DNA from: Lysinibacillus sp. 2017
GTDB lineage: Bacteria > Bacillota > Bacilli > Bacillales_A > Planococcaceae
DNA: 64,000 bases
Direction of reading: 5' to 3'
NCBI RefSeq assembly: GCF_003073375.1
Contig: NZ_CP029002.1
Coordinates: 1,040,001 to 1,104,000, forward strand
Part shown: positions 30,389 to 57,486 of the stretch, piece after piece
Numbering within the stretch: the stretch's first letter is position 1
How the letters are laid out: each line of letters begins with the position of its first letter
Notes under the pieces: generated by a model
Told to the model about the DNA's origin: nothing
The model's input: only the letters and a program-made list of their open reading frames with translations
Databases searched by the model: none
Program-made: the position numbers and the translations under genes

Positions 30389-32212
30389 GTGAATTATACC
30401 GCTAGATATACTTTGTTTTCTATATTAGATTCAATCATTGTTTTATCAGCCATTTTTATCAGCTATTTTTTATTACATCCCACATGGAATGCTTATGATT
30501 CATTAATCGTTATAAGTTCTATTACTTTGCTAATTAGTCATCATATAATGGCCTATTTCTTTCAATTATATAATCGAATCTGGAGTTTAGCCTCCGTAAG
30601 AGAATTATTGGCAATAGGTTATGCTGTAACTATTTCTGTTTTCACGGCAAGTGTCATGCAATTTATAATTAAGGGGGACGTTTATTTTCGTGTAATGGTT
30701 ATTACATGGCTATTACATATTGTATTAATTGGGGGCTCACGTTTCTTCCTTAGAATATTACATGATGTATCTTCTTTTAAACCTAATGGAAATTTAAAAC
30801 GGGTTTTAATAATAGGAGCTGGTGAAGCGGGTACAATGCTTCTACGTGGTATAAAGAGAAATCAATCCGAATATGAAGTAGTGGGCTTTATAGATGATAA
30901 TCTAAATAAAAAAAACTTGAAATTAATGGGTGTTAAAGTGTATGGAACAACGAAAGATATTCCACGAATTGTACAGGAAAAAGGAATTGAAGAGATTTTT
31001 TTGGCAATTCCGTCTCTTAGTAAAAGGAAAATTCAAGATATTTATGCACATTGTTTAGAAACAAAAGTAACAATTAAAATAATGCCGAAAATGGAGGACT
31101 TTATGTCTGGAAAAATTTCCGTGAATGATATGCGCGAAATTAAAATCGAAGACCTTCTTGGACGCGAAGAAATAAAACTGAATTTTTTGTCTCCTTCAAA
31201 TAATATAACAAACAAAGTTATCCTCGTAACAGGTGCTGGTGGATCGATCGGTTCAGAAATCTGTCGACAAGTAGCACAATTCCAACCAACTCAAATAATA
31301 CTACTAGGCCATGGCGAAAACTCAATTTATAATATCCACTTAGAATTATCTGAAAAAAATGAATATAAAAACATAGACTTCGTTCCAATTATTGCAGATG
31401 TACAGGATAGAGAACGGATTTTTGAAGTGGTCAGTAAATTTCAACCTGATGTAATATATCATGCCGCAGCTCATAAGCATGTTCCATTGATGGAATATAA
31501 TTCACGTGAGGCAGTGAAAAATAATATTTTTGGGACAAAAAATGTAGCAGAGGCTGCACATACATTTGATGTCTCAAACTTTGTCATGATTTCAACTGAT
31601 AAAGCGGTTAACCCAACAAATGTAATGGGGGCAACGAAACGTATTGCTGAAATGGTGATTCAAAATTTAGCTAAAAATAGTCATACAAACTTTGCTGCGG
31701 TTCGTTTTGGCAATGTACTAGGGTCAAGAGGAAGTGTAATACCTAGATTTAAAGCGCAAATTGCAGCAGGTGGACCTGTCACTGTCACACACCCAGAAAT
31801 GACTCGCTATTTTATGACTATCCCTGAAGCATCTCGATTGGTGCTACAGGCTGGGGCACTTGCGCAAGGTGGGGAAGTATTTGTACTCGATATGGGTGAA
31901 CCAATGAAAATTGCTAACCTAGCAAAAAATCTAATTCGCTTATCGGGTTATACAGAAGAAGAGATTGGTATTGAATTCTCTGGTATCCGTCCCGGTGAAA
32001 AAATGTTTGAGGAACTGTTAAATGCAGCAGAAATACAGGAAGAACATATTTATCCTAAAATCCACGTAGGTAAAGCGAATTGTATGGATGAATATTTATT
32101 ATCTGCTGTGCTGATTGAATTAGAAGAATGTGATCTAGAGCAATTAAAAATAAAACTAGTTGATATCGCTAACGGTAAATGGACTTTAGAAAAGGAAAAA
32201 ACTGTGGGTTAA
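30389..32212 (+). CDS. epsC: Membrane nucleotide-sugar 4,6-dehydratase (EpsC/CapD/PglF type)
   Basis: 607 residues: four N-terminal membrane helices, a CoA-binding-like Rossmann domain (VLIIGAGEAGTML, about 138-150), and a C-terminal SDR domain with VTGAGGSIGSEI (about 280) and STDKAVNPTNVMGATKR. Methionine replaces the usual SDR tyrosine, as in PglF/FlaA1-type UDP-GlcNAc C4,6-dehydratases. It probably makes UDP-2-acetamido-4-keto-6-deoxyhexose for the first sugar. GTG start with TAGGGGG upstream; a TATAAT at 30352-30357 may drive local transcription. Confidence 0.92.
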   Translation: MNYTARYTLFSILDSIIVLSAIFISYFLLHPTWNAYDSLIVISSITLLISHHIMAYFFQLYNRIWSLASVRELLAIGYAVTISVFTASVMQFIIKGDVYFRVMVITWLLHIVLIGGSRFFLRILHDVSSFKPNGNLKRVLIIGAGEAGTMLLRGIKRNQSEYEVVGFIDDNLNKKNLKLMGVKVYGTTKDIPRIVQEKGIEEIFLAIPSLSKRKIQDIYAHCLETKVTIKIMPKMEDFMSGKISVNDMREIKIEDLLGREEIKLNFLSPSNNITNKVILVTGAGGSIGSEICRQVAQFQPTQIILLGHGENSIYNIHLELSEKNEYKNIDFVPIIADVQDRERIFEVVSKFQPDVIYHAAAHKHVPLMEYNSREAVKNNIFGTKNVAEAAHTFDVSNFVMISTDKAVNPTNVMGATKRIAEMVIQNLAKNSHTNFAAVRFGNVLGSRGSVIPRFKAQIAAGGPVTVTHPEMTRYFMTIPEASRLVLQAGALAQGGEVFVLDMGEPMKIANLAKNLIRLSGYTEEEIGIEFSGIRPGEKMFEELLNAAEIQEEHIYPKIHVGKANCMDEYLLSAVLIELEECDLEQLKIKLVDIANGKWTLEKEKTVG

Positions 32213-32275
32213 CTAATAATAAATTTCCTAGTAGCTAGCTATTTAATAAATGAAAATCAAGGAGTTGTAACCCCC

Positions 32276-32884
32276 TTGTATATGATTGTAAAAAGATTGA
32301 TCGATATCATACTCTCTTTCACTGCATTAATTTTACTATCACCTTTATTTTTACTATTGATTTCTATGATCAAACTAGATTCGAAAGGTCCGGTACTGTT
32401 TAAACAAAAAAGAGTAGGTATTCATAAAAGCCATTTTACTATTTTAAAGTTCCGAACGATGAGAATCGATACGCCTAAGGATACAGCAACCCACTTATTA
32501 GAAGACCCTGAACAATATCTAACTAAAATAGGCAAGATCTTAAGAAAAACCAGTTTAGATGAATTACCTCAAATTTGGAATATTCTTATGGGACATATTA
32601 GTTTCATCGGACCTAGACCTGCATTATGGAATCAGTATGATTTAATTGTTGAACGTGATAAATACGGTGCTAATGGAGTGCCACCAGGGTTAACAGGGTG
32701 GGCTCAAATTAATGGTAGAGATGAGCTGACAATTGAAGATAAGGCAAAGCTAGATGGAGAATACGTAATAAAAATAGGATTATGGATGGATATTAAGTGT
32801 TTCTTTGGTACTATCATCAGAATATTTACAACAGATGGAGTTGTTGAAGGAGGCACAGGAGCTATTAAATCTAAAGGCAGTTAG
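32276..32884 (+). CDS. Initiating undecaprenyl-phosphate sugar transferase
   Basis: 202-residue membrane enzyme of the bacterial sugar transferase family (WcaJ-C-terminal/PglC/EpsL size class). One N-terminal membrane segment (IDIILSFTALILLSPLFLLL), then KFRTMRID, LRKTSLDELPQIWNIL, GHISFIGPRPAL and GLTGWAQINGRDELT. It loads the first sugar phosphate onto undecaprenyl phosphate. Its neighbours suggest a 2-acetamido-2,6-dideoxyhexose. TTG 32276 is preferred: AAGGAG (32259-32264) is 11 bases away, against 17 for ATG 32282. Confidence 0.9.
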   Translation: MYMIVKRLIDIILSFTALILLSPLFLLLISMIKLDSKGPVLFKQKRVGIHKSHFTILKFRTMRIDTPKDTATHLLEDPEQYLTKIGKILRKTSLDELPQIWNILMGHISFIGPRPALWNQYDLIVERDKYGANGVPPGLTGWAQINGRDELTIEDKAKLDGEYVIKIGLWMDIKCFFGTIIRIFTTDGVVEGGTGAIKSKGS

Positions 32885-36290: not shown

Positions 36291-37421
36291 TTGAAAAAAC
36301 TAAAAGTAATGACAGTAGTAGGGACTCGACCAGAAATTATTCGCTTGTCTGCCGTAATAAATAAGTTAGAACAATCGAATGTAATTGAACACACACTTGT
36401 TCATACAGGGCAAAATTATGATTACGAATTGAATGAAGTTTTCTTTAAAGATTTCCATTTAAAAAAGCCAGATTTTTTCCTGAATGCGGCTACTGGGACA
36501 GCAACTGTAACAATAGGTAACATTTTAAATAAAATCGATCCTGTATTAGAGGAAGTGCAGCCTGATGCATTTTTAGTATTAGGAGATACGAACAGCTGCT
36601 TATGTGCAATTGCTGCGAAGAGAAGGCAGATACCGATTTTCCATATGGAAGCAGGTAATCGATGCTTCGATCAACGTGTACCCGAAGAAACAAATCGGAA
36701 AATTGTCGATCATATTTCAGATATTAATTTAACATACAGCGATATTGCTAGAGAATATCTCTTAAGAGAGGGTTTTTCAGCAGACCGAATTATTAAGACA
36801 GGAAGTCCAATGTTTGAAGTACTTAACTCGAAAAAAATAGATATTGAAAAATCGGATGTGTTACAAAGATTAGTGCTTGAAGAAGGTAAGTATTTTGTTG
36901 TTTCTGCGCACCGGGAAGAAAATATTAATTCTATGGTAAATTTTCTTGATTTGGTGGAAAGCTTGAATGCAGTTGCAGAAAAGTATCAGTTCCCTGTCAT
37001 CGTAAGTACACACCCAAGAACACTGAAAATGATAGAGAGTAAGGGAATTGAATTTAATACATTAATAAAAATAATGAAGCCTTTAGGGTTTAACGATTAT
37101 GTAAAACTACAAATGAAATCAAAAGCAGTTCTTAGTGATAGTGGAACAATTAGTGAGGAGTCATCCATTCTTGGTTTTAAAGCACTCAATATTCGGCAAG
37201 CTCATGAAAGACCGGAAGCAATGGAAGAAGCTTCGGTTATGATGGTAGGGCTTGAGAAGGACCGGATTTTACAAGGGTTGGAGATTTTAGAAACACAGCA
37301 AGCAGACACGTTAAGACTTGTGGAAGATTACCAGATGACGAATGTGTCGGACAAAGTATTGAGGATTATCTTGTCGTATACACATTATGTAAATCGCGTT
37401 GTGTGGGGGCTGGTGAATTGA
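36291..37421 (+). CDS. capG: UDP-N-acetyl-L-talosamine 2-epimerase (CapG/FnlC)
   Basis: 376-residue member of the UDP-GlcNAc 2-epimerase family (VVGTRPEIIRLSAVI; HTGQNYDYELNEVFF; HMEAGNRCFDQRVPEETNR). Together with capE and capF it gives UDP-L-FucNAc. TTG start after TTGGAGG. Its TGA stop overlaps the ATG of the next gene. Confidence 0.92.
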   Translation: MKKLKVMTVVGTRPEIIRLSAVINKLEQSNVIEHTLVHTGQNYDYELNEVFFKDFHLKKPDFFLNAATGTATVTIGNILNKIDPVLEEVQPDAFLVLGDTNSCLCAIAAKRRQIPIFHMEAGNRCFDQRVPEETNRKIVDHISDINLTYSDIAREYLLREGFSADRIIKTGSPMFEVLNSKKIDIEKSDVLQRLVLEEGKYFVVSAHREENINSMVNFLDLVESLNAVAEKYQFPVIVSTHPRTLKMIESKGIEFNTLIKIMKPLGFNDYVKLQMKSKAVLSDSGTISEESSILGFKALNIRQAHERPEAMEEASVMMVGLEKDRILQGLEILETQQADTLRLVEDYQMTNVSDKVLRIILSYTHYVNRVVWGLVN

Positions 37422-38467
37422 TGAGAATCGCTCTAATTTGTCCATCGAATATGCTGTATATGCCATATGTTAAAAATTACGAACATATATTAGTTGAACA
37501 AAATATAGATTATGACATTATCAATTGGGATAGGTTTCAGATGGAGGAAATAAAAGAGAATACCTATAGAGATAAAAAAAAAGGTCACCAAAGAAATTTC
37601 CTTGATTATTTAAAATACAAGAAATTTTTGATGAATAGATTGAATTCAAGCCATTATGACAAAATAATAGTGTTTGGTATTCAGTTAAGTTACTTCCTAA
37701 AAAAGATTATAAAAAGTAAATATAAAGAAAAGTGCATTATTGATATTAGAGATCATAATAAAATCTTGAATTTCTTCAATTTAGGAGAATTAATAGAATG
37801 CTCAGCATCCACAATTTTATCTTCACCAGGATATAAAGAATGGCTCCCTAAAAGCAATAAATATGTAATTAATCATAATACACAAGTTACTAGCATAAAT
37901 GAATTAAAAGACATAAATATCTTTAATAAAGACAAAGTATATATAGCAAATATAGGAGCAATTAGAGATTTAAAGGTAAATAAAGATTTTATAAATAATA
38001 TTAAAGATAATGAAAAGTTTGAACTTAAGTTCCACGGTGAAAGTGATGAAAATAATAAATTGAAATTATATATAAATAGTAATCATATAAACAATGTTTT
38101 AATAACTGGAAGATATAAAAAAGAAGATGAAGAAGGTTTTTATAATCAAAGCGATTTAATAAATGTGCTTAGATATAGGGATGGAATTAATAATAAAACA
38201 TCACTTCCCAATCGATTATATAATGCAGTATTACATGGTAAACCTTTGCTTACTTATGAAGGAACCGCATTGGCGAAAGAAATACGAAAGTATAATCTGG
38301 GGCTAATTTTATCATCGATGAATAATTTGGAAAGTGAAATGATTAAGTATTTAAATGAGTTTGATTATGAAGTTTATAAAAAAGGTAGGATTTCCTTTCT
38401 TTACTCTGTAACCAAAGATAATAAAAATTTTTATTTAAAGGTAAAAGAATTTTTATTTAAGGAGTAG
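37421..38467 (+). CDS. Probable glycosyltransferase (GT-B, family uncertain)
   Basis: 348 residues, rich in Lys, Asn and Ile and encoded by visibly more AT-rich DNA than the backbone. N-terminus MRIALICPSNMLYMPYV; the C-terminal NKTSLPNRLYNAVLHGKPLLT and EIRKYNLGLIL look like the donor-binding half of GT4-type enzymes. No membrane segment. ATG 37421 overlaps the capG stop (TGATG). The specific sugar cannot be predicted. Confidence 0.7.
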   Translation: MRIALICPSNMLYMPYVKNYEHILVEQNIDYDIINWDRFQMEEIKENTYRDKKKGHQRNFLDYLKYKKFLMNRLNSSHYDKIIVFGIQLSYFLKKIIKSKYKEKCIIDIRDHNKILNFFNLGELIECSASTILSSPGYKEWLPKSNKYVINHNTQVTSINELKDINIFNKDKVYIANIGAIRDLKVNKDFINNIKDNEKFELKFHGESDENNKLKLYINSNHINNVLITGRYKKEDEEGFYNQSDLINVLRYRDGINNKTSLPNRLYNAVLHGKPLLTYEGTALAKEIRKYNLGLILSSMNNLESEMIKYLNEFDYEVYKKGRISFLYSVTKDNKNFYLKVKEFLFKE

Positions 38468-39726: not shown

Positions 39727-39760
39727 TTTTTTGAAACTAAATCCAAATAAGGATGATTTT

Positions 39761-41101
39761 ATGGATAAAATAGAATACAAATTAAATCAAGTAGCAGTAA
39801 TTCTAATAACTATGTGGATAGCTATTCCACTTTTTAGGGTAAGAGTGGGCGTGATTTTTTTTATTCTACTATTTTTTTTATGGCTCATAACAAGTGATAC
39901 AAAGTGGCTTATTCAAAAATTGTCTTGGAGTTTGTTATTTGTCCTAACATTTTTCATTACATTCATACCTTATGTAATTGTTGGAAAATTACAATATGGA
40001 GCAGCCGGTGTAAATATAATCATAGTTAATTTCCCTCTTTTTTTTGTCGGCTTATTTATAAATCACTATTATATGTTTTATAAAAAAGATTATAAAACAT
40101 TAGGGAAAATCGCTTTTTATTTTCTCTTATTTTTTACAATCGGCGCATTACAAACATACTTTGGATTATTAACATACCCAATGGCTTCAAGGCAGCTTGC
40201 TACAGGGTTGCCAGAGTTTTCAGAAATGTACAATCGTATGGGTATTGGAGGATTTGGATTTATATACAGCGGAACATTTTTATTGTTGGCAATCTTATAC
40301 ATGTTCTTAATGAAAAGAAATTTATTCTCATTAAAATATAAAATTTTAATCGTATTATCAATTGTTATAATTTCCCTCATGTTATTAAAGGCATCGTTTG
40401 CAACGTCTATATTAATTACTTTTTGTGGAGTATTATTAATTCTTTTTGTTCGAAGTAAATTAACATTAGTAATTACGGTGTTATTTACAGTGATATCCAT
40501 AACATTTATTTCTGAGTCTTTAATCGCAAAGTTTTTTCTTGGAATAGCCAATTATTTTAGTGAAGATCCAATATTAAAGGAAAAATTCACAGATTTAGCT
40601 TCTACATTCCTTTATAGTTCATTAGATGGTCAGACAGGAAATAGATTTGATTTATATGTAAGTTCCCTCAAAGTATTTTTGGGAAATCCTTTTTTTGGTA
40701 TATATGGACCCTTTGGTGATCAAAATGCGAGTTTAGTTGGTGGCCATTCAGGATGGTTCGATTTACTAGCTTATTATGGGTTATTTACAAGCATTCCTCT
40801 GTTTATAGCGCTTTATTATAATTTTAAAATCCATTTTAGCTTATTAAAGAAAATGAAGTTTCATGTTTATTTAACGATACTCTATTTTTTGATTTTTGTA
40901 TTCGGTCTTATTAACCCGATTCTTTATGTCTATGAAATAGGATTTGTTTTATTTTGTATAATTCCAGCAATTCCTTTTATTCCATATGCATTTAAAACAA
41001 ACGCTCTTGCAGAAACCAAAAAGGAAAAGAGTGATCAAACGAATGAAGATATTATGGCTCGTCAATATTCCCCTGCCCGAAGTATGTCGACTAATGGATG
41101 A
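39761..41101 (+). CDS. wzy: O-antigen/EPS polymerase (Wzy-like)
   Basis: 446-residue polytopic membrane protein with about eleven hydrophobic segments and a large outside loop (around SEDPILKEKFTDLASTFLY...GQTGNRFDLYVSSLKVFLGNPFFGIYG), the pattern of Wzy/WaaL polymerases. ATG 39761 is chosen over TTG 39731 because AAGGATGA lies before it. The last 20 residues overlap the next gene by 59 bases and are not membrane-like, so the end may have shifted by mutation. Polymerises repeat units outside the membrane. Confidence 0.8.
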   Translation: MDKIEYKLNQVAVILITMWIAIPLFRVRVGVIFFILLFFLWLITSDTKWLIQKLSWSLLFVLTFFITFIPYVIVGKLQYGAAGVNIIIVNFPLFFVGLFINHYYMFYKKDYKTLGKIAFYFLLFFTIGALQTYFGLLTYPMASRQLATGLPEFSEMYNRMGIGGFGFIYSGTFLLLAILYMFLMKRNLFSLKYKILIVLSIVIISLMLLKASFATSILITFCGVLLILFVRSKLTLVITVLFTVISITFISESLIAKFFLGIANYFSEDPILKEKFTDLASTFLYSSLDGQTGNRFDLYVSSLKVFLGNPFFGIYGPFGDQNASLVGGHSGWFDLLAYYGLFTSIPLFIALYYNFKIHFSLLKKMKFHVYLTILYFLIFVFGLINPILYVYEIGFVLFCIIPAIPFIPYAFKTNALAETKKEKSDQTNEDIMARQYSPARSMSTNG

Positions 41102-42351: not shown

Positions 42352-43338
42352 ATGACTAATGAAATAATGGTTAGTATATGTTGCATAACTTATAATCATG
42401 AAGATTATATTGCAGATGCAATCGAAGGATTTATAAAGCAAAAGACTAACTTTAAATACGAAATTATAATTCATGATGATGCTTCTACTGACAGAACAGC
42501 GGAAATTATTAGAGAGTATGAAAATAGGTTTCCTGACATTATTAAACCGATTTATCAAATAGAAAATCAGTATTCAAAAGGAGTAAGTGTAAGCGCTCTT
42601 GTTAGAAAAAAGCAGAGAGGAAAATATATAGCGTTATGTGAAGGTGACGATTATTGGACTGATGAATATAAGCTTCAAAAGCAAGTGAGCTACATGGAGG
42701 AAAACCCAGAATGTACATTTTGTTTTAGCAACGCTCATGTTGAGGATCAAAATAATAAAGGTAGAAATCGCCTAGTAATCCCCTGGTTAACTGAAAATAA
42801 GAATTACTTCAATAATAGAAGTAGAAGGTATTCTGCTGGTGAATTACAATTACTAGGGTTCATTCCACCTATGTCCTTTCTCTATCCTAAAAGAGTTTTA
42901 GATAACTTACCAAACTGGTATTTTGATGCTCCTGTAGGAGATAACGCCGTGAAGCTAATAGCAACTAGTTATGGATATGCATACTACATGAATGAATCTA
43001 TGTGCATTTATAGGTTTAATGTACCTGGATCTGTTACAACAAATTGGAAAAAGGAAAATACCGAACAAATAGTACAACGATGTAATGGCTTCATTACAAT
43101 GCTAGAAAATTTTAATGAATATACAAACAAAAAATATGATAGTGAAATTGAACTTTCAAAATTAACTTGGGAAATACAACGGCTTAGATTGATGGGAGAT
43201 TATAAGAGACTTAAAGATAAGAAATTTAATAGTTATTTAAATCTTCTGAGTGGACCTGAAAAAATTAAAAGTTACATTTCCTTTAAATTTCCTTCAGCTG
43301 TTGAGTACAGGAAAAAAATCAAATCCATTTTTCAATAA
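42352..43338 (+). CDS. Glycosyltransferase family 2
   Basis: 328 residues, GT-A fold: VSICCITYNHEDYIADAIEG, IIIHDDASTDRT (UDP-binding Asp residues) and CEGDDYWTDEYKLQKQV (the DxD-like and catalytic region). No membrane segments. Ribosome binding site AAAGGGG. Last glycosyltransferase before a hairpin and the flippase gene. Confidence 0.88.
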   Translation: MTNEIMVSICCITYNHEDYIADAIEGFIKQKTNFKYEIIIHDDASTDRTAEIIREYENRFPDIIKPIYQIENQYSKGVSVSALVRKKQRGKYIALCEGDDYWTDEYKLQKQVSYMEENPECTFCFSNAHVEDQNNKGRNRLVIPWLTENKNYFNNRSRRYSAGELQLLGFIPPMSFLYPKRVLDNLPNWYFDAPVGDNAVKLIATSYGYAYYMNESMCIYRFNVPGSVTTNWKKENTEQIVQRCNGFITMLENFNEYTNKKYDSEIELSKLTWEIQRLRLMGDYKRLKDKKFNSYLNLLSGPEKIKSYISFKFPSAVEYRKKIKSIFQ

Positions 43339-43511: not shown

Positions 43512-44987
43512 GTGAGCAATGAGATAACAAAATCTAAAATAATTTCTTCATTATTATGGAAGTTTATGGAACGTGGGGGAACGCAAGGTATTCAATTTAT
43601 AGTTATGATTATACTGGCCCGAATACTTCTACCAGAAGAATTCGGCTTAATTATTTTAGTATCAATTTTTATAACTATTGCTGGAGTAATCGCTCAAAGT
43701 GGGTTTAATACAGCACTTATTCAGAAGAAAAAAGTTGATGAAATAGATTTTTCCTCGGTCTTTTATCTAAACTTATTCGTTACAACCATACTATATATAT
43801 TACTGTTTATCACAGCGCCTTATATAGCATTATTTTTTGACCATCCTCAACTCACCCTTATTTTAAGAATTCTCTCTTTAACATTATTTTTAGGCGCTTT
43901 TAATTTAATTCAAAATGCAGTTATTGCAAGAAATATGGAATTTAAAAAACTCTTTTTTAGTAGTTTAGGAGGAGTTGTAATATCTGGAGTTGTCGGAATA
44001 GTAATGGCATACGCCAATTTTGGAATTTGGTCTTTAGTAGTCCAGCAATTAACGAATCAGTTAATTGTTACATTAACTTTGTGGTATACAGTAAAATGGA
44101 AACCTAAATTATTCTTTTCTATAGAAAGACTGGTTAGTTTATTTTCATTTGGCTGGAAGCTACTAGCGGCTGCATTGATTGATACTATATATTCGAATAT
44201 TCGAAGCCTTATTATAGGTAAAATGTTCAGTCCAGCAATTTTAGGATTTTACAATAGGGGAGAACAGTTCCCTAGTTTACTTATTTATAACATAAACGGT
44301 TCCATTCAATCAGTTATTTTTCCTGCGTTATCTTCTCAACAAGATAACAAGCAAAGAATAAAAGAAATGGTACGAAGATCAATTGTAACAAGCTCATTTA
44401 TTGTCTTTCCAATGATGATTGGTCTAGCTGTTATTGCAGAGCCTTTGGTGAAGATATTGTTAACGGAAAAATGGCTCCCAGCCGTTCTATTTTTACAAAT
44501 TTTTTGTGCTGTATATGCGTTATGGCCAATTCATACAGCCAATTTACAAGCAATAAATGCATTAGGTCGTAGTGATATTTTTTTAAAACTTGAAATTGTA
44601 AAAAAAATAATTGGTATAACTATTTTAATTATTAGTATACCTTTAGGTGTTCATGCAATGGCTATAGGTTCATTTGTGGGTGGAGTTTTAGCTGCGATTA
44701 TTAATGCTTATCCAAATTTAACATTACTCAATTATAGTGTAAAGGAGCAGTTAAAAGATATTCTGCCCTCTTTATTAATAGCGTTAATAATGGGTGCTAT
44801 TGTATATAGCATTCAATGGCTGGGACTATCAGATATGGTAACAATCACTATGCAAATCTTTACTGGCGTAGCGATATATATTGGGCTAGCTAAAATATTT
44901 AGATTAGAATGTTTTATTTATTTAGTCATGACGTTGAAAGAAATATTTAAAAGGAATAAGAAAGTCCCAACTGAAGAGATTTATTAA
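43512..44987 (+). CDS. wzx: Polysaccharide flippase (Wzx-like, MOP superfamily)
   Basis: 491-residue membrane protein with 12-14 hydrophobic segments. The start KSKIISSLLWKFMERGGTQGIQFIVMIILARILLPEEFGLI-type region shows the typical ERGGTQ...LARLLxPEEFG pattern of the WzxC/lipopolysaccharide exporter group. Moves lipid-linked repeat units across the membrane before Wzy polymerisation. GTG start with AAGGAG upstream. Followed by an IS remnant. Confidence 0.9.
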   Translation: MSNEITKSKIISSLLWKFMERGGTQGIQFIVMIILARILLPEEFGLIILVSIFITIAGVIAQSGFNTALIQKKKVDEIDFSSVFYLNLFVTTILYILLFITAPYIALFFDHPQLTLILRILSLTLFLGAFNLIQNAVIARNMEFKKLFFSSLGGVVISGVVGIVMAYANFGIWSLVVQQLTNQLIVTLTLWYTVKWKPKLFFSIERLVSLFSFGWKLLAAALIDTIYSNIRSLIIGKMFSPAILGFYNRGEQFPSLLIYNINGSIQSVIFPALSSQQDNKQRIKEMVRRSIVTSSFIVFPMMIGLAVIAEPLVKILLTEKWLPAVLFLQIFCAVYALWPIHTANLQAINALGRSDIFLKLEIVKKIIGITILIISIPLGVHAMAIGSFVGGVLAAIINAYPNLTLLNYSVKEQLKDILPSLLIALIMGAIVYSIQWLGLSDMVTITMQIFTGVAIYIGLAKIFRLECFIYLVMTLKEIFKRNKKVPTEEIY

Positions 44988-45453: not shown

Positions 45454-46737
45454 ATGGATATTTTTGAAAACTATGAATCCGTAGTGCGTTCCTATTGCAG
45501 ACAATATACGGATGTTTTTTATAAAGCTAAAAATGAATTAATTTATTCTGAAGAGGGTAAAGAATATCTAGACTTTTTCGCTGGAGCAGGTGCACTAAAT
45601 TACGGACATAATAATGAATATATTAAAAAATGTTTATTGGATTATATTGAAAACGATGGTATTACGCACGGTTTAGATATGTATACAAATGCAAAGCGAA
45701 ATTTTATTAATGAATTTGTTGAAAATATACTAAAACCTAGAAACTTAGATTATAAAATTCAGTTTTGTGGTCCTACAGGAACTAATGCTGTAGAAGCGGC
45801 ATTAAAATTAGCAAGAAAGACTAAAAAAAGAAGTAATATATTTGCCTTTATGGGTGGCTTTCATGGTATGTCATTAGGAAGTTTAGCTACAACAAGTAAT
45901 CTTTCTTCTAGAGAAGGTGCTGGAATGCCGCTTTCTAACGTAACTTTTATGCCGTATCCAGATGGTTCGTTAAATATTGATACGCTAGATTATATGGAAA
46001 AGATTTTGGAAGATGATCACTCCGGAATTGAAAAACCTGCTGCTATTATTTTAGAAACTATACAAGCAGAAGGTGGCGTTAATGTTGCTTCAAATGAATG
46101 GTTACAGGGAGTAGCGAGTATATGCAAAAAACACGATATTTTATTAATATGTGATGATATACAAGTTGGGTGTGGAAGAACAGGGGACTTCTTTTCATTT
46201 GAAAGGGCTAATATTGTTCCTGATATGGTTGTATTGTCTAAATCTATAAGTGGTTATGGCTTACCAATGTCAATATTACTAATGAAACCGAAACTTGATA
46301 TTTGGAAACCGGGTGAACATAATGGTACTTTTAGAGGCAATCAACTAGCATTTGTAGCTTCAGTAGCATCATTAAAATTACGTGATAAGTTAGATTTAGA
46401 TAATAGTGTTTGCAGTAAAGCGAGTTATATTAAAGACTTTTTAGAAAATCGAGTTTGTACTATAGATTCAAGGATTGAAATAAGAGGAATGGGTATGATT
46501 TGGGGCATTGATTTTAGTAAGTTAGAAGATTCGAGCATCTGCTCAAAGATTATCAAGGAATGTTTCAATAGGGGATTAATAATTGAAAAGGCAGGAAGAA
46601 ACGGTTCTGTTATAAAGCTCATACCACCTCTAACAATTACAGAAGAAAATCTTCAAAGGGGCTTAGAAATTTTAGAGGAAGTATTACGGGAGATTGTGCC
46701 TTATAGGTCATTATTACAAGAAACTTCATTCGTTTGA
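45454..46737 (+). CDS. EctB-like diaminobutyrate-2-oxoglutarate transaminase
   Basis: 427-residue class III PLP aminotransferase. Segments DFFAGAGALNYGHNN, DGITHGLDMYTNAKR, LKPRNLDYKIQFCGPTGTNAVEAALKLAR and VLSKSISGYGLP (PLP lysine about 263) are close to EctB, which makes L-2,4-diaminobutyrate from aspartate semialdehyde and glutamate. ATG 45454 is chosen (length equals EctB; GGGGGTTA upstream) over ATG 45421. There is no ectA or ectC nearby, so this is not an ectoine operon. Three ATP-grasp genes follow, suggesting that diaminobutyrate or a similar amine is ligated to a sugar or peptide. Confidence 0.85.
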   Translation: MDIFENYESVVRSYCRQYTDVFYKAKNELIYSEEGKEYLDFFAGAGALNYGHNNEYIKKCLLDYIENDGITHGLDMYTNAKRNFINEFVENILKPRNLDYKIQFCGPTGTNAVEAALKLARKTKKRSNIFAFMGGFHGMSLGSLATTSNLSSREGAGMPLSNVTFMPYPDGSLNIDTLDYMEKILEDDHSGIEKPAAIILETIQAEGGVNVASNEWLQGVASICKKHDILLICDDIQVGCGRTGDFFSFERANIVPDMVVLSKSISGYGLPMSILLMKPKLDIWKPGEHNGTFRGNQLAFVASVASLKLRDKLDLDNSVCSKASYIKDFLENRVCTIDSRIEIRGMGMIWGIDFSKLEDSSICSKIIKECFNRGLIIEKAGRNGSVIKLIPPLTITEENLQRGLEILEEVLREIVPYRSLLQETSFV

Positions 46738-46786
46738 GTCGTGCTTATGTAAAATGAAAATGGAATCTAACTAAGAGGTATAAAAG

Positions 46787-48007
46787 ATGAAAAAACTATT
46801 AATGCTTGGTGGTTCACCAGCTCAAGTTGTCGCAATAAAGAAAGCGAAAGAGCTGGGGTATTATGTTGTAACTGCTGACTATTTAGAGAATAATCCAGGA
46901 CATCAATTTTCTGACGAGTACCATAATGTTAGTACAACGGACAAAGAAGCTATTTTAAAATTAGCAAAGTCATTACACATTGATGGTGTTGTTTGTTATA
47001 TCTCAGATCCCGGAGTCCCAACGGCTGCCTATGTTGCTGAAAAATTAAATTTACCTTCTTTTCCATATAAATCGGTAGAAATATTATCTAATAAAGATAT
47101 GTTTAGATTCTTTTTGAAGGAAAATAATTTTAATGTACCACAAGCAAAAGGGTACGCCACATTAGGTGAAGCTAAAGTAGATTTTCATACTTTTACAATG
47201 CCGATAATGGTCAAGCCGATTGATTCTTCTGGCAGTAGGGGTGTATCAAAAATTAACTCAATAGAACTCTTGCCAGAGAAAGTGGAGTATGCTTTATCTT
47301 TTTCAAGAGAAAAACGTTTTATTATCGAGGAATATATTGAAAGACAGGGATATCAAATTGGCGGTGAATGTTTTTTTGTAAATGGGAAGCTTGCATTTTC
47401 AAGACTAGTTAATATCCATTTTGAAACAAAATCTTTTAATCCATTTCTACCAACAGGTGAGAGCTGGCCGTGCAATCTACCTGCACACTTACAAGGAAAA
47501 ATCCATGCTGAAATTCAAAGGTTAGTGAATTTATTAAATATGAAAACTGGTCCATTAATTTTTGAGGTTCTAGTTGATTATAAAGAAGATGTATATATTT
47601 TAGATATCGGTGTTCGAAATAGTGGTGACCTAACTCAAGTTATAGAACATGTAGAAGGTATTGATTTGATTGGATATACAATTAAGGTTGCATTAGCTGA
47701 AGATTGTAGTGATTTAGAGATAGTTGAACCAAGTGGATATTGGGCTATTTATACAATAATTAGTGAGCAATCTGGAGTATTTAAAGGTATAGAGATTAAG
47801 AAGGAGTTTCAAAAATATCTAATAAAATATAATTCTGAGCTTCCTTCTGGATACGTAATAAAAATGAACGAAAGTGTCGGAACGCTTTTGTTAAATTTTT
47901 CATCAATGTATGAAATGCTAGAAAGTATGGATAGTATTAGTAGCTGGGTGAAGGTAAATATACAGGAGAAAAATATCGATGTTGAAGTATCAAATGTTTT
48001 CCTCTGA
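46787..48007 (+). CDS. ATP-grasp ligase paralogue 1 (diverged)
   Basis: 406 residues. N-terminal pre-ATP-grasp domain MKKLLMLGGSPAQ, VSTTDKEAIL, then an ATP-grasp fold (IMVKPIDSSGSRGVSKI, FIIEEYIERQGYQIGG). It is one of three tandem paralogues. At the metal-binding strand it reads LDIGVRNSGDLTQV: residue 273 is Asp where copies 2 and 3 have Glu, the NGG is NSG, and one residue is missing before QV. Activity may be altered or lost. The family forms amide or similar bonds between a carboxylate and an amine using ATP; the substrates here are unknown. GAGGTA ribosome binding site. Confidence 0.85.
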   Translation: MKKLLMLGGSPAQVVAIKKAKELGYYVVTADYLENNPGHQFSDEYHNVSTTDKEAILKLAKSLHIDGVVCYISDPGVPTAAYVAEKLNLPSFPYKSVEILSNKDMFRFFLKENNFNVPQAKGYATLGEAKVDFHTFTMPIMVKPIDSSGSRGVSKINSIELLPEKVEYALSFSREKRFIIEEYIERQGYQIGGECFFVNGKLAFSRLVNIHFETKSFNPFLPTGESWPCNLPAHLQGKIHAEIQRLVNLLNMKTGPLIFEVLVDYKEDVYILDIGVRNSGDLTQVIEHVEGIDLIGYTIKVALAEDCSDLEIVEPSGYWAIYTIISEQSGVFKGIEIKKEFQKYLIKYNSELPSGYVIKMNESVGTLLLNFSSMYEMLESMDSISSWVKVNIQEKNIDVEVSNVFL

Positions 48008-48036
48008 TTACTCAAAAAAATAAATGAGGTGTATAT

Positions 48037-49254
48037 ATGAAAAAGTTATTAATGTTAGGTGGCGCTCAAACTCAAGTTCCAGCGATTAAAGCTGCTAAAG
48101 AACTGGGAGTTTATGTTATTGTTACTGACTATTTAGAAGATAATCCGGGACAACATTTTGCTCATGAATCTTATAGTGTCAGTACTACTGATAAAGAAGG
48201 AGTTTTAGCCCTAGCTAAGTCATTAGAAATAGATGGTATTGTTTCTTATGCCTCAGATTATGGAGCACCAACAGCTGCTTATGTTGCTGGAAAGTTAGGT
48301 CTTCCAACAAGCCCTTATAAATCAGTTGAGATTTTAACTAGGAAGGACCTGTTTAAAGCGTTTTTAAAAGAAAATAATTTTAAAGTACCTAAAGCAAAAG
48401 GATATAACTCTTTTGAAGAAGCTAATGCGGATTTTTACAATTTTAACATGCCAGTGATGATTAAACCAGTTGATTGTTGTGGTAGTAGAGGGGTCTCAAA
48501 AATTGAATCAATTGAGCAATTACAGGAAAAAGTTGAGGATGCATTAAGTTATTCAAAAATTAATCGTTTTATTATTGAAGAATATATTGAAAAAAGTGGC
48601 TATCAAGTTGGTGGTGATGGCTTTTCTGTAAATGGTAAATTAGTTTTCCGATGCTTCTCGAATGAACACTTCTCTTCTACTTCTATTAATCCATTTGTAC
48701 CAGTTGGATACAGTTTCCCAAGCAACTTGCCTGATCATATACAGGATAAAATCCATAATGAAATTCAAAGAGTTTTGGATTTACTAAATATGCAAACTGG
48801 TGCTTATAATTTCGATATTTTGGTTGATAAAAATGAAGATGTATACCTAATAGAACTAGCCGCACGAAATGGCGGGGACTGGATACCTCAAGTAGCGAAA
48901 TATGCAACAGATATCGATATGGTTGAATTCACCATTAAAGGAGCGCTAGGTGAAGACTGTAGTGATTTAATATTTACTAAGCCAAAAGGTTTTTGGGCGG
49001 GTTATGCGGTTAATAGTTTGAATAGTGGAATTTTTAAGGGAGTAGAATTCCACAAAGAATTAAAAGAAAACAATCTAGTAGAGTATGAAATAACAGCAAA
49101 AAATGGTGATCCTATTTACGCTTTTTCTGGGTCTCATTTGAAGATAGGAACGTTAGTACTTAAGTATTCTTCGATGGAAGAAATGTTAGAGAAGATGGAT
49201 AATATGCCTAATTGGCTTCAAATCATTGTAGATGATTCTTTAATAAAGAATTAA
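48037..49254 (+). CDS. ATP-grasp ligase paralogue 2
   Basis: 405 residues, closely related to the flanking paralogues. MKKLLMLGGAQTQVPAIKAAKELG, YLEDNPGQHFAHE; ATP-grasp lysine in PVMIKPVDCCGSRGVSK; EEYIEKSGYQVGGDGFSV; and the metal strand YLIELAARNGGDW with Glu273 and Asn278 intact. It lies 29 bases after copy 1, with a GAGGTG ribosome binding site. Probably an active carboxylate-amine ligase; substrates unpredicted. Confidence 0.87.
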   Translation: MKKLLMLGGAQTQVPAIKAAKELGVYVIVTDYLEDNPGQHFAHESYSVSTTDKEGVLALAKSLEIDGIVSYASDYGAPTAAYVAGKLGLPTSPYKSVEILTRKDLFKAFLKENNFKVPKAKGYNSFEEANADFYNFNMPVMIKPVDCCGSRGVSKIESIEQLQEKVEDALSYSKINRFIIEEYIEKSGYQVGGDGFSVNGKLVFRCFSNEHFSSTSINPFVPVGYSFPSNLPDHIQDKIHNEIQRVLDLLNMQTGAYNFDILVDKNEDVYLIELAARNGGDWIPQVAKYATDIDMVEFTIKGALGEDCSDLIFTKPKGFWAGYAVNSLNSGIFKGVEFHKELKENNLVEYEITAKNGDPIYAFSGSHLKIGTLVLKYSSMEEMLEKMDNMPNWLQIIVDDSLIKN

Positions 49255-49440
49255 GTAAAAGCATTCATTAGATTACATTACATGTGGCTAGCTACCCGAT
49301 TAGTACAAAGGAATACCTTCGAACTTTGAAGGAGTATTTATGGGATATTAATTTAAGGCTTAGTTACAAATGAACAAGCCTATTTATAAGTTAAATTAAT
49401 ATCGATTCTTACTCAAAAATAATAAGCGAGGTATAAATAA

Positions 49441-50655
49441 ATGAAAAAATTATTAATGCTCGGTGGAGCTCATTCTCAAATTCCAGTTATTAAAGCAGCA
49501 AGAGATTTAGGGCATTACGTTGTAACCTGTGATTATTTAGAAGATAATCCAGGTCATAAATATGCACATGAATATTACAATGTCAGTACAACTGATAAAG
49601 AAGCTGTCTTATCTTTAGCGAGTACATTAAAAATAGATGGAATTGTATGTTATGCATCCGATCCTGCAGCACCAACAGCAGCTTATGTTGCTGAAAAGTT
49701 AGGATTGCCTTCAAATCCCTATCAATCGGTGGAGATACTGTCGAATAAAGATAGGTTTAGAGAGTTTCTGAAGCAAAATAACTTTAATGTGCCAAAAGCG
49801 AAAGGATATTCTTCGATTGAAGAAGCTGAAGCTGAATTTCATAGCTTCAAAATGCCTGTGATGGTAAAGCCAGTTGATTCATCAGGGAGTAAAGGAGTTT
49901 CAAAAATTGATTCAATAGATCTTCTTAGAGAAAAAGTAAAAGATGCATTAAGTTATTCAAGAATTAAACGTTTTATTATAGAAGAGTATATTGAAAAATC
50001 CGGTTATCATATTGGGGGAGATGGATTTTCTGTAGATGGGAAATTTGTATTTCGGTGTTTAGCCAATGAACATTTCCCAGATTCCCAAATTAATCCGTTT
50101 GTCCCAATAAGCGCTAGTTGGCCATGTGCTTTGCCAGAGCGTATTCAAGATAAAATTCATCATGAAATCCAAAGAGCACTAAATTTATTAAATATGAAAA
50201 CAGGTGCTTACAATTTTGATATAAGAATTGACGATAAAGAAGATATTTATTTTATTGAGATGGGTGCAAGAAATGGTGGTGACTTGTATCCACAGGTAAT
50301 AAACTATGCAACTGGAATTGATATGGTTGAATATACGATTAAAGCCGCATTAGGAGAGAACTGTAGTGATTTAACAATGGTTGAACCAAAAGGATACTGG
50401 GCTGTTTATTTACTGAATAGCCAGAATAGTGGAATATTTAAAGGCGTTGATATTCATGAAGAAATTCAAAAAAATATTATCGAATGTGAACTACTGGTAA
50501 ATCAGGGTGAGAAAATTTCAGCACTAACAGGAGCCCATGCGAAGGTGGGAATAATGATTTTGCAGTTCTCCTCAATGGATGAAATGTTGGATAAGGTGGA
50601 GAATATGACAAAATGGGTGAAGGTGAATATTGATAATTCATTAGTGGGAAAATAA
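49441..50655 (+). CDS. ATP-grasp ligase paralogue 3
   Basis: 404 residues. MKKLLMLGGAHSQIPVIKAARDLG; VMVKPVDSSGSKGVSKI; EEYIEKSGYHIGGDGFSVDG; metal strand FIEMGARNGGDLYPQV with Glu273 and Asn278. The leader TTACTCAAAAATAATAAGCG-AGGTATAAATAA closely matches the leader of copy 2, so gene and upstream sequence were duplicated together. The 186-base gap before it contains no gene. It is followed after 21 bases by the sugar aminotransferase gene, suggesting one transcript. Confidence 0.87.
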   Translation: MKKLLMLGGAHSQIPVIKAARDLGHYVVTCDYLEDNPGHKYAHEYYNVSTTDKEAVLSLASTLKIDGIVCYASDPAAPTAAYVAEKLGLPSNPYQSVEILSNKDRFREFLKQNNFNVPKAKGYSSIEEAEAEFHSFKMPVMVKPVDSSGSKGVSKIDSIDLLREKVKDALSYSRIKRFIIEEYIEKSGYHIGGDGFSVDGKFVFRCLANEHFPDSQINPFVPISASWPCALPERIQDKIHHEIQRALNLLNMKTGAYNFDIRIDDKEDIYFIEMGARNGGDLYPQVINYATGIDMVEYTIKAALGENCSDLTMVEPKGYWAVYLLNSQNSGIFKGVDIHEEIQKNIIECELLVNQGEKISALTGAHAKVGIMILQFSSMDEMLDKVENMTKWVKVNIDNSLVGK

Positions 50656-50676
50656 CTGAGGTTAAAGGGTGACACA

Positions 50677-51807
50677 ATGAAACCAATACAAGTAACGCAA
50701 TCATCTATGCCAAAGTTTGAAGAGTTTTCTGAGGAAATTAGGAGTTTATGGGATAGTCAATGGCTAACTAACATGGGTGTAAAACATAATCAATTAGAAA
50801 AAAACTTGGAGTCTTTTCTTAAAACGCCTCATGTTTCGCTATTTTCTAATGGGCATCTAGCCTTAGAATACGCAATTGCAGCCTTAAATTTAACTGGGGA
50901 GGTTATCACTACTCCCTTTACATTTGCATCTACAACTCATGCAATTGTAAGAAACGGTTTAACCCCAATCTTCTGCGACATTAATCCAGATGATTATACC
51001 CTGAACACGGAAATGCTTGAGAATTTAATAACACATAAAACATCAGCCATTATACCGGTTCATGTATATGGTAATATTTGCAATGTAAATGAGATTGAAA
51101 GAATAGCAAAAAAGTATAATCTTAAGGTAATATACGATGCTGCGCATGCTTTTGGGGTCACTATAGATGGTAAAGGTGTAGCAAGCTTTGGTGATGCTTC
51201 CATGTTCAGTTTTCATGCAACAAAAGTATTTAATACGATTGAAGGCGGAGCATTAACTTTCAATGATCCTAGTTTGAAAAATTTATTTAATGCTTATAAA
51301 AACTTTGGTATTACTGGACAAGAAACTATAGATTATGTTGGTGGAAATGCTAAAATGAATGAATTTCAAGCTGCTATGGGCATTTGTAATCTTAGACATG
51401 TAAATCAAGAAATTCAAAAGAGAAGGCAAGTATTTGAGCGATATATGGAACATCTTGGAGATATTAAAGGCATCAAATTACCTCGTCCACAAGTAGGAGT
51501 AAGCAATAATTATGCTTACTTTCCAGTTGTATTTGATGGCTTTCAACTTTCCAGAGATGAGGTTCTTGAAGAATTAAAGAAACACAATATTTTTGCTAGA
51601 AGGTATTTTTATCCACTAACAAATGACTTAGATTGTTATCGAGATAGATTTACTTCTGATTTGACGCCAGTTGCCAAATATATATCAGAAAGAGTCTTGA
51701 CGCTCCCACTGTATGCAGGTTTAAGACTAGAAGAAATTGATAGAATTTGTGGAATTATTAAGTCAAAAAGTATTAGCTTCCAAAGTTATGGAATTACCAA
51801 GAATTAG
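50677..51807 (+). CDS. DegT-family sugar aminotransferase (VioA-like)
   Basis: 376-residue PLP-dependent nucleotide-sugar aminotransferase. [46 protein letters not shown] and [15 protein letters not shown] (PLP lysine) resemble enzymes that aminate dTDP-4-keto-6-deoxyglucose at C4 (VioA type, giving dTDP-Qui4N). RmlA and RmlB, which make that keto sugar, follow directly. AAGGGTGA ribosome binding site. The position of amination is inference from similarity. Confidence 0.85.
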
Positions 51808-51820
51808 AGGTGTTTATCCG

Positions 51821-52687
51821 ATGAAAGGAATTATTTTAGCTGGAGGTTCAGGAACTAGACTGTATCCTCTGACGAAATCTATTTCTAAACAAATGTTACC
51901 TATATACGATAAACCGATGATTTATTATCCGCTTTCTGTATTAATGCTTGCTGGTATAAAAGAAATCCTGATTATTTCTACTTCTCGAGATATTGAAGGG
52001 TTTAAAGAACTTTTAGGAGACGGCAGTAAGTTAGGAATAACTTTTAAATATGCTGTGCAAGAAAATCCTAATGGCCTTGCAGAAGCTTTTATAATTGGAG
52101 AACAGTTTATTAATAATTCGTCAGTCGCATTAGTTTTAGGTGATAATATTTTCTATGGTTCTAATTGGAGTAATTGTTTAAAAGAAGCTGCGTCTTTGTC
52201 GACAGGTGGCATTATTTTTGGTTGTTATGTCAATGATCCTAGAGCCTATGGTGTAGTAGAGGTAGATGAGCAACAGAATGCTATATCTATAGAAGAAAAG
52301 CCTGAAAATCCTAAATCTTCCTACGCAGTTCCGGGTTTATATTTTTTTGATAATAAGGTAGTTGATATTGCCAAAAACGTAAAGCCTTCAGCACGGGGTG
52401 AAGTGGAGATTACTTCTATTCTAAATGAATACCTTCAAAGAGGTGAATTAAAAGTAGAACTGACTGGTAGGGGCTTGGCTTGGTTAGATACGGGAACGCA
52501 TGAGTCATTACTAGAGGCTTCAAATTTTGTAGAGGCTATACAAAAAAGGCAGGGATTATATATTGCTTGCATTGAAGAAATAGCATTTAGAAGAGGATAT
52601 ATAACAAAGGAACAGTTACTAAATCTTGCCGAGCCTCTTTTGAAGACGGAATATGGTAAATATTTGGTGGAAATTTCATATTCATAA
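51821..52687 (+). CDS. rmlA: Glucose-1-phosphate thymidylyltransferase
   Basis: 288 residues, the usual RmlA length: [33 protein letters not shown] is split here into [18 protein letters not shown] and [16 protein letters not shown], with LGDNIFYG and [15 protein letters not shown]. Makes dTDP-glucose from glucose 1-phosphate and dTTP. ATG 51821 is chosen with AGAGGTG upstream; the in-frame ATG at 51737 lies inside the aminotransferase gene. A hairpin terminator follows. Confidence 0.95.
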
Positions 52688-52689
52688 AC

Positions 52690-52719
52690 AACTCTCATGT
52701 GACAATGTAGAGTTTTTTT
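52690..52719 (+). terminator. Terminator between rmlA and rmlB
   Basis: AACTCT / AGAGTT stem with inner CAT/ATG pairs, then seven T. It may only attenuate, because rmlB lies just downstream. Confidence 0.6.
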
Positions 52720-52754
52720 ATTTCGGTTGAACAAATTCAAAAGAGGTGAGTAGG

Positions 52755-53762
52755 ATGAAAAAGAAAAAAATTATGGTTACTGGTGGAGCGGGGTTTATTG
52801 GAGGTAACTTTATTCAATATATGGTCGAAAAGTACTCTGAGTATGAAATATATAATGTTGACGTATTAACGTATGCAGGTGACTTAACCAAACATCGGGC
52901 TATAGAAAAACAAGAAAATTATCATTTTGTTAAAGCAGATATTGTGGATCATGATGTAATTCTTTCTCTTTTTGAAAAAGAACAATTTGATTTTGTCGTC
53001 CACTTTGCCGCTGAAAGTCATGTGGATCGTTCCATTACAGATCCCAGTATTTTCGTGCAAACAAATGTTTTAGGTACACAAGTTTTATTAGAAGCAGCAA
53101 GGAGTGTAGGCATTACAAAATTTGTTCATGTATCAACAGATGAAGTATATGGGGAATTGGATTTTGACCCAACAACTTTTTTTACAGAAGAAACACCATT
53201 AAAACCAAATAGTCCATATAGTGCAAGTAAAGCATCTTCAGATTTGTTAGTACATGCTTATCATCATACTTATGGAGTACCGATGAATATTACACGCTGT
53301 TCTAATAACTATGGTCCTTATCAATTTCCAGAAAAGTTAATTCCTTTAACTATTTCTCGTGTATTAAATAATGAAAGGATTCCTGTATATGGAGATGGTC
53401 AAAATATTCGGGACTGGTTACATGTGTTCGATCATTGTACGGCTATTGATTTAGTATTACACGAAGGTGTGAATGGAGCGGTATACAATATAGGTGGCCA
53501 TAATGAGCGCACGAATTTACAAGTGGTGAAAACAATTATTCAAACATTAGGTAAATCTGAAGAACTAATCGAATTTGTCGAGGATCGTTTAGGTCATGAT
53601 AAACGTTATGCTATTGATCCGACTAAGATGGAGCAATTAGGCTGGAGGCCAATATATACATTTGAATCAGGCATTCGCCAAACGATTCGGTGGAGTGTCG
53701 AAAATATGAATTGGTTGAAGAATGTTAGTGGAGAAAAAAATACGGAGTATATAGAAAAGTAA
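52755..53762 (+). CDS. rmlB: dTDP-glucose 4,6-dehydratase
   Basis: 335-residue SDR enzyme making dTDP-4-keto-6-deoxyglucose. VTGGAGFIGGNF, HFAAESHVDRSI, STDEVYGEL, PYSASKASSD (Tyr-Lys) and RCSNNYGPYQFPEKLIPL are canonical. ATG 52755 is preferred: GAGGTGAG (52743-52750) is its ribosome binding site and overlaps the alternative GTG 52746. No rmlC or rmlD is present in the window, so the product likely feeds the VioA-like aminotransferase, not rhamnose. Confidence 0.95.
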   Translation: MKKKKIMVTGGAGFIGGNFIQYMVEKYSEYEIYNVDVLTYAGDLTKHRAIEKQENYHFVKADIVDHDVILSLFEKEQFDFVVHFAAESHVDRSITDPSIFVQTNVLGTQVLLEAARSVGITKFVHVSTDEVYGELDFDPTTFFTEETPLKPNSPYSASKASSDLLVHAYHHTYGVPMNITRCSNNYGPYQFPEKLIPLTISRVLNNERIPVYGDGQNIRDWLHVFDHCTAIDLVLHEGVNGAVYNIGGHNERTNLQVVKTIIQTLGKSEELIEFVEDRLGHDKRYAIDPTKMEQLGWRPIYTFESGIRQTIRWSVENMNWLKNVSGEKNTEYIEK

Positions 53763-53781: not shown

Positions 53782-53820
53782 TGGACTGGATTCTATATAT
53801 TGGGATTCAGTTTTTTATTT
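53782..53820 (+). terminator. Terminator after rmlB
   Basis: ACTGGATTCT / GGGATTCAGT stem with G-U pairs, then TTTTTTATTTT. The remaining 260 bases to pgi are AT-rich with no clear gene. Confidence 0.6.
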
Positions 53821-57423: not shown

Positions 57424-57440
57424 TAATTTGAATAAATTTG

Positions 57441-57486
57441 AACACTTATACAAATGATAATTAAATCATTTGTATAAGTGTTTTTT
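57441..57486 (+). terminator. Intrinsic terminator after spoVS
   Basis: Eighteen-base-pair perfect stem (57441-57458 / 57465-57482) with a six-base loop and T-run. Confidence 0.92.

Follow-up and report, generated by a model that had tools for sequence, protein, structure and literature searches.

A capsule island in Lysinibacillus sp. 2017 raises the question of what a diaminobutyrate transaminase, three ATP-grasp ligases and nucleotide amino-sugar genes might be doing side by side. The island lies in a stretch of 64,000 nucleotides (hereafter the window; contig NZ_CP029002.1, positions 1,040,001 to 1,104,000) of a genome assembled as a single 3.74 Mb contig. At 45454-53762 of the window, seven genes encode an EctB homolog, three ATP-grasp ligases (AG1, AG2 and AG3), a VioA/DesI-like aminotransferase, RmlA and RmlB. 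All seven are open, contiguous and on the plus strand, just as an initial annotation made from the DNA letters had described them within a polysaccharide island. We propose that these genes probably form a capsule-modification cassette in which the AGs N-acylate dTDP-4-amino-4,6-dideoxyglucose (dTDP-Qui4N) with amino acids that include L-2,4-diaminobutyrate (DAB).

In this proposed pathway, RmlA and RmlB would form dTDP-4-keto-6-deoxyglucose, the VioA/DesI-like enzyme would aminate its C4 to give dTDP-Qui4N, and EctB would convert aspartate semialdehyde to free DAB. AG1-AG3 would then form amides from amino acids whose carboxylates they activate as acyl phosphates; at least one AG would acylate the Qui4N amine, at least one would use DAB, and the rest would either add further residues to give a di- or tripeptide or take other amino acids. 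Once incorporated in the repeat unit, the acylated sugar would be flipped by a Wzx flippase inherited with the cassette. The EctB, RmlA, RmlB and ATP-grasp fold assignments are supported at the family level, and we infer from context that the sugar product is Qui4N, that the amide forms on its amine, that DAB is a ligase substrate and in what order the steps follow.

The capsule EctB groups with lipopeptide-associated homologs

The EctB protein scores 596.4 bits against the equivalog model TIGR02407 (cut-off 552.2). The initial annotation had noted that ectA and ectC are missing beside it, and this holds for the whole genome: EctC has no match, in a search that did match 19 relatives but none of 14 control genomes, and EctA has only two matches of 25-28 bits (cut-off 120.6) and none at 1e-20. 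Our survey of 261 genomes of the family, in which gene labels at relatives' loci are mostly BLAST matches to window proteins or to Pfam-scanned reference proteins, found EctB-like matches at E ≤ 1e-80 in 27 genomes. Six of these are weaker (38-39% identity, about 275 bits) and 21 score at least 434 bits; EctA and EctC lie alongside, by coordinates, in 19 of the 21. The two genomes lacking these neighbors are the window genome and one other member of the genus (G157), and in both of them EctB sits inside a capsule island.

A wider sample of 398 genomes across the class yielded 62 EctB matches, of which thirteen are 60-68% identical to the window EctB and all others, the window's own aside, are at most 55% identical. 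EctA and EctC were present in all 16 of the inspected loci from this more distant set (L110-L125). In a tree of 32 rows, a 100/100 branch separates 17 ectABC rows from the window EctB, the G157 EctB and the thirteen, and at all eight columns that distinguish EctBs of the non-ribosomal peptide synthetase (NRPS) type from ectoine EctBs the window protein carries the NRPS-group residue. Of the 102 columns invariant in the 30 other EctB rows, it deviates at Y18, S303 and one gap column. NRPS genes were found near 11 of the thirteen grouped EctBs, nine by BLAST (five at just 84-99 bits) and two more by Pfam, which detected them in five representatives of the thirteen loci, L135 and L138 not being among those scanned. 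Two Paenibacillus studies propose or state that such lipopeptide-cluster EctBs (polymyxin EctB, pelgipeptin PlpA) are the source of free DAB (PMC4454717, PMC3479019). Because it groups with NRPS-linked EctBs, and this role has been described for EctBs of the family, the most plausible function of the capsule EctB is to make free DAB, and the earlier prediction of that product is supported by both tree and residues.

Where would this DAB go? The genome has no match to an NRPS condensation domain and none to the PF00282 decarboxylase, with both searches positive in control genomes; therefore the DAB consumers that were tested are absent from the genome, these being EctA, EctC, the condensation domain and PF00282, with other possible consumers not searched. 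Ectoine synthesis was rejected since EctC has no match, EctA has none over its cut-off, and the EctB falls off the ectoine side of the tree. The broader idea that ordinary ectoine or siderophore metabolism merely happens to lie beside capsule genes can draw on the family membership of EctB, but it is largely contradicted by these same results, by the lack of an NRPS condensation domain and by the movement of ectB together with capsule genes (see below), and we regard it as extremely improbable.

The sugar branch points to a 4-amino-4,6-dideoxyhexose

RmlA and RmlB both exceed the cut-offs of their equivalog models, with 467.6 bits on TIGR01207 (cut-off 360.65) and 481.4 bits on TIGR01181 (cut-off 365.1). 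Across the whole genome there was no match to RmlC, and none of ten RmlD matches exceeded the cut-off, the best being RmlB itself, so that the annotated absence of RmlC and RmlD stands. Rhamnose synthesis was rejected on these grounds, and for the same reason RmlA and RmlB should feed the neighboring aminotransferase. This enzyme belongs to the DegT/DnrJ/EryC1/StrS class (PF01041, 327 bits). DesI is its top NCBIfam model, but the score of 293.6 bits is far short of the cut-off of 650, and the enzyme stays under all NCBIfam cut-offs; its top PDB match by sequence is 2po3, which we take to be DesI. The predicted product is dTDP-Qui4N, for which we infer both the epimer and the site of amination. 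The overall logic first put forward for this locus, joining dTDP-Qui4N, free DAB and ATP-grasp ligation, gains partial support from the comparative genomics: the amino-sugar genes of AG islands, the GNAT-like genes in the same slot, the NRPS-type EctB and the joint transfer of the block.

AG ligases recur beside amino-sugar genes

AG relatives (E ≤ 1e-60) occur in 26 of the 261 family genomes, and a 4-amino-sugar gene set is present in all of their 26 islands, either RmlA, RmlB and VioA (17 islands) or PglF-like and PglE-like genes (9 islands). A VioA match was found in 18 of the 26 AG genomes vs 38 of the 235 others (Fisher p 3.3e-8). The 18 include G246, whose weaker VioA lies ~0.5 Mb from its AGs and whose island carries the PglF/PglE-type set, and G236, in which VioA is ~11 kb from the AG and near an NDP-hexose 2,3-dehydratase.

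The position between Wzx and VioA, which the AGs occupy, is filled differently elsewhere. For the 38 VioA genomes lacking an AG, we fetched 12 islands and viewed 11 (L160 of G139 was only tallied). Five of the 12 have a GNAT-like gene, adjoining VioA each time: in G150, G161, G162 and G164, which are all the members of the genus with VioA and no AG, it sits in the Wzx-VioA slot, and G065 has it next to VioA. The GNAT domain was confirmed by Pfam in two loci (L149, L152), and G163 has both an AG and a GNAT-like gene. In G199 and G138, of two other genera, the slot holds a PylC-like ATP-grasp, and in G015, G081, G110 and G095 it is empty. The PylC-like genes (PF21360; L158:10650-11678 and L159:10637-11698) stand beside VioA-RmlA-RmlB. 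As acyltransferases and ligases alternate next to an amino-sugar aminotransferase, this pattern fits N-acylation of the sugar amine.

Outside the family the association is looser and gives the favored pathway weaker support. An AG of at least 250 bits was found at 20 of the 27 non-family loci (L010-L036); VioA is present at 12 of these 20 and the RmlA-RmlB-VioA set at 4. Three loci (L016, L022, L033) have no VioA across some 21 kb, and several other non-family contigs are short.

The AG genes are also found with a variety of accessory genes. Among the 26 family islands, with labels checked by Pfam in representatives, 12 have FemAB-like genes, 7 Orn/DAP-type (ornithine/diaminopimelate) decarboxylases, 5 WbqC-like genes and 5 formyltransferase-like genes, and AG loci from gut metagenomes carry class I aminotransferases and an octopine dehydrogenase-like gene. 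The pyridoxal phosphate (PLP)-dependent Orn/DAP-type decarboxylases lie near the AG in L009, L078-L082 and L085 (Pfam-confirmed in L009 and L078), and their proximity suggests that different amino acids or amines are used in other AG cassettes. We also observed a recurrent protein of ~320 aa that often adjoins AG, GNAT-like or VioA genes; two scanned copies (L070:11782-12750; L149:7609-8568) have no Pfam match, and it was matched as well in the L012, L015, L019, L071, L077, L153 and G060 loci. A tblastn search against plasmids gave 242 records, the best being a Brachyspira AG at 57.4% identity, and no diaminobutyrate transaminase appears in the gene tables, themselves incomplete, of two plasmid AG regions. 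In the Brachyspira hyodysenteriae plasmid (L087), the AG of 57% identity is flanked by a radical SAM/SPASM gene on one side and an 'ATP-grasp fold amidoligase' gene on the other, two further such amidoligases follow downstream, and it is possible that this is another multi-ligase glycan modification locus.

The combination of EctB with three AGs is found in just two of the 261 genomes, the window genome and G157, both of which also have VioA and lack ectA and ectC beside EctB. The initial annotation had called such a route unusual for a Bacillales capsule. This is true of the version with EctB, but AG cassettes as such are fairly common in the family (26/261).

The cassette has probably moved as a unit

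Synonymous divergence (dS) between the window and G157 is low across a block of genes (Wzx 0.48, EctB 0.41, AG1 0.27, AG2 0.52, AG3 0.42, VioA 0.55), with Wzx 85% identical to its counterpart. The values are higher for RmlA (0.78), RmlB (1.04) and Wzz (1.19), and higher still for FnlA (2.65), WbjC (3.13), WecB (1.79) and GT2 (1.94), these last being rough and near saturation; the flanking exceptions are WcaI (0.48) and FlaA1 (0.95). Because dS is low across the block and higher in most flanking genes, Wzx-EctB-AG1-AG2-AG3-VioA was probably exchanged as a unit between islands that are otherwise different. The ratio of non-synonymous to synonymous divergence (dN/dS) of 0.14-0.35 in the block, highest in AG1, indicates that its genes are under purifying selection.

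These data bear on whether DAB reaches the ligases at all. It could be that the AGs acylate Qui4N with ordinary amino acids and that DAB is converted further or used elsewhere, leaving a polymer free of DAB. AG chemistry does not need DAB, since 24 of the 26 AG cassettes lack EctB. However, in both EctB genomes ectB lies directly 5' of the AGs and shares their low dS, and no EctA, EctC, condensation domain or PF00282 consumer was found, so we consider a DAB-free product unlikely.

Three intact ATP-grasp ligases

All three AGs exceed the PF13535 cut-off of 27 (AG1 34.2, AG2 57.1, AG3 40.4). They are paralogues, with AG1 60% and AG2 65% identical to AG3, and each keeps K143, E181, two acidic positions and R277, among which we presume to recognize the ATP lysine, the acidic metal-site pair and the phosphate arginine. 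AG1 belongs to a five-genome subclade (100/100) in which Asp replaces Glu at the second acidic metal-site position; its structural model has a predicted local distance difference test (pLDDT) score of 89.2. AG2 forms a lineage of two members, present in just the two EctB genomes in a tree of the 62 rows that passed E 1e-35 and 330 residues, more distant matches being excluded. Alignment A2 omits L018 (stop in translation) and, as a deliberate selection, L014, L017, L019, L020, L023, L025, L027 and L029-L036, and alignment A3 has 18 rows. The ATP-grasp fold covers the whole length of the proteins, and the closest structure to the AG3 model is the L-amino-acid ligase 3vot. A Pfam match to LAL_C2 was seen in AG3 alone, at 21.9 bits vs a cut-off of 29.4.

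This kinship allows for amides made elsewhere, either an amino acid placed on the carboxylate of a uronic acid or a free, bacilysin-like dipeptide. The closest solved relatives do include free L-amino-acid ligases, and some relatives' islands seem, judging from the starts of the sequences, to have UDP-sugar dehydrogenase genes. Yet no uronate dehydrogenase match was found among the 20 scanned proteins of the window island, and the amino-sugar genes of all 26 islands, the GNAT-like genes in the slot and the co-inherited flippase speak for a sugar amine as acceptor, which makes this alternative very unlikely.

Are all three ligases at work? A single AG might serve as the sugar acylase, with the other two redundant or decaying duplicates: the acidic pair of AG1 is altered, its dN/dS is the highest of the block, and islands with a single AG are the commonest (14/26). 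We nevertheless find this quite unlikely, as none of AG1-AG3 is disrupted in either genome and their dN/dS stays well below 1, the AG1 subclade is retained in five genomes that each have another AG, and the same Asp occurs in the single-AG islands L009 and L085.

The AGs may also join amino acids to each other, as the initial annotation had allowed. A bolder and quite tentative version of our proposal is that the three tandem AGs act one after another on dTDP-Qui4N and assemble on its 4-amine a di- or tripeptide that contains DAB, giving a cationic peptidyl capsule sugar made without ribosome, tRNA or NRPS, with EctB recruited from lipopeptide clusters; we think this possible but doubtful. If true, the cassette would belong to a diversifying family that pairs AGs with different amino-acid enzymes, such as Orn/DAP-type decarboxylases, class I aminotransferases, octopine dehydrogenase-like and FemAB-like proteins.

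The surrounding island

The cassette is surrounded by FnlA/WbjC/WecB-type genes for UDP-N-acetyl-L-fucosamine (UDP-L-FucNAc), glycosyltransferases, Wzx, a Wzz-like protein, a tyrosine kinase and an LCP protein (Table 1). A GT2 gene directly before Wzx recurs in many AG/VioA islands (L003-L008, L067, L070, L071, L077-L079), and that of the window is a candidate for adding the acylated Qui4N. Two island proteins (37403-38467 and 39731-41101) have no Pfam match at 0.01 and are perhaps, from their position, a glycosyltransferase and a polymerase. At 30389-32884 a PglF/FlaA1-like 4,6-dehydratase gene is directly followed by one for a PglC-like sugar-phosphate transferase, with no intervening PglE-like aminotransferase gene; in G151 (L089) a PglE-like gene lies between the pair. 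An inverted repeat of 19 pairs (57440-57483), terminator-like on both strands, is found 3' of the tyrosine-kinase gene. The terminator scan gave 13 sites vs 5.9 in shuffles and the promoter scan 46 vs 68.1, fewer than by chance, and neither was used as evidence; an Rfam scan of 26000-58000 had no match at gathering scores.

Table 1. Features of the cassette and its immediate neighbors in the window
Feature	Position	Strand	Basis
GT2 glycosyltransferase directly 5' of Wzx	42352..43338	+	PF00535
Wzx flippase co-travelling with the cassette	43512..44987	+	PF13440/PF01943; dS 0.48 to G157
EctB-type diaminobutyrate--2-oxoglutarate transaminase, predicted source of free DAB	45454..46737	+	TIGR02407 above cut-off
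AG1, ATP-grasp ligase	46787..48007	+	PF13535; clade 100/100; motif table; model
AG2, ATP-grasp ligase	48037..49254	+	PF13535; tree
AG3, ATP-grasp ligase adjoining VioA	49441..50655	+	PF13535
VioA/DesI-like PLP sugar aminotransferase, predicted dTDP-Qui4N maker	50677..51807	+	PF01041
RmlA, glucose-1-phosphate thymidylyltransferase	51824..52687	+	TIGR01207 above cut-off
RmlB, dTDP-glucose 4,6-dehydratase	52746..53762	+	TIGR01181 above cut-off
Terminator-like hairpin, 13 pairs, just 3' of rmlB	53783..53813	+	Consensus scan; not taken as functional evidence

Implications and comparison with known systems

Our proposal predicts a positively charged capsule decoration derived from an amino acid of lipopeptide antibiotics, and it offers a genetic route, open to testing, by which aminoacyl- and peptidyl-amino sugars could be made. 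If it is right, the AG family would mark such sugars in other islands (26 of the 261 family genomes), and the ligases could serve as tools for making aminoacylated nucleotide sugars.

Parts of this chemistry have precedents. A review of polysaccharides from Gram-negative marine bacteria describes Qui4N bearing N-acetyl-D-alanyl, N-acetylglycyl and hydroxybutyryl-L-alanyl groups (PMC3210612). These resemble the proposed product in having an amino acid amide-linked to 4-amino-4,6-dideoxyglucose, but the amino acids are neutral and N-capped, and that text makes no mention of diaminobutyrate. The Paenibacillus lipopeptide clusters share with the cassette an EctB-family transaminase as the supply of free DAB, and the window EctB groups with such NRPS-linked EctBs. 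There, however, DAB goes to an NRPS, whereas the window genome has no condensation domain match. The L-amino acid ligases BL00235 (3vot), BacD/YwfE and RizA share the whole-length fold and the conserved Lys, acidic and Arg columns with the AGs, but the identity is about 20% and the AG substrate is predicted to include a sugar amine.

A parallel in gene content is the type B flagellin modification of Clostridioides difficile, where an ATP-grasp mutant loses the terminal peptidylamido-sugar; its authors stated in 2016 that no glycan of a Gram-positive pathogen had previously been seen to carry amino-acid substituents (PMC5207246, PMC5207245). According to these reports, the four-gene group CDR20291_0244-0247 also combines a Pfam 13535 ATP-grasp with a DegT-type sugar aminotransferase, and its sulfonated peptidylamido-glycan is an amino sugar with a peptide-like cap, like the proposed product. 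It differs in that the glycan is on flagellin, the sugar is 3-amino-3,6-dideoxygalactose (Fuc3N) rather than Qui4N, and the cap consists of taurine, alanine and glycine; they describe a single ATP-grasp together with FemAB-like and ornithine cyclodeaminase-like genes and name no EctB. Neither of these two accessory types had a match among the 20 scanned island proteins. By this gene-set test the cassette is not a member of the C. difficile system, and it may work like it, a comparison of gene content and not of sequence kinship with CDR20291_0245. Among the open-licence literature matches listed, none describes a Gram-positive capsule cassette that combines a dedicated DAB synthase with three ligases, which is weak evidence. 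Because of the aminoacyl-Qui4N chemistry and the ATP-grasp-linked peptidylamido-sugar of C. difficile, aminoacyl-Qui4N and peptidyl-amino-sugars are already known kinds of product, and it is the proposed DAB-dedicated version with three ligases that would be new.

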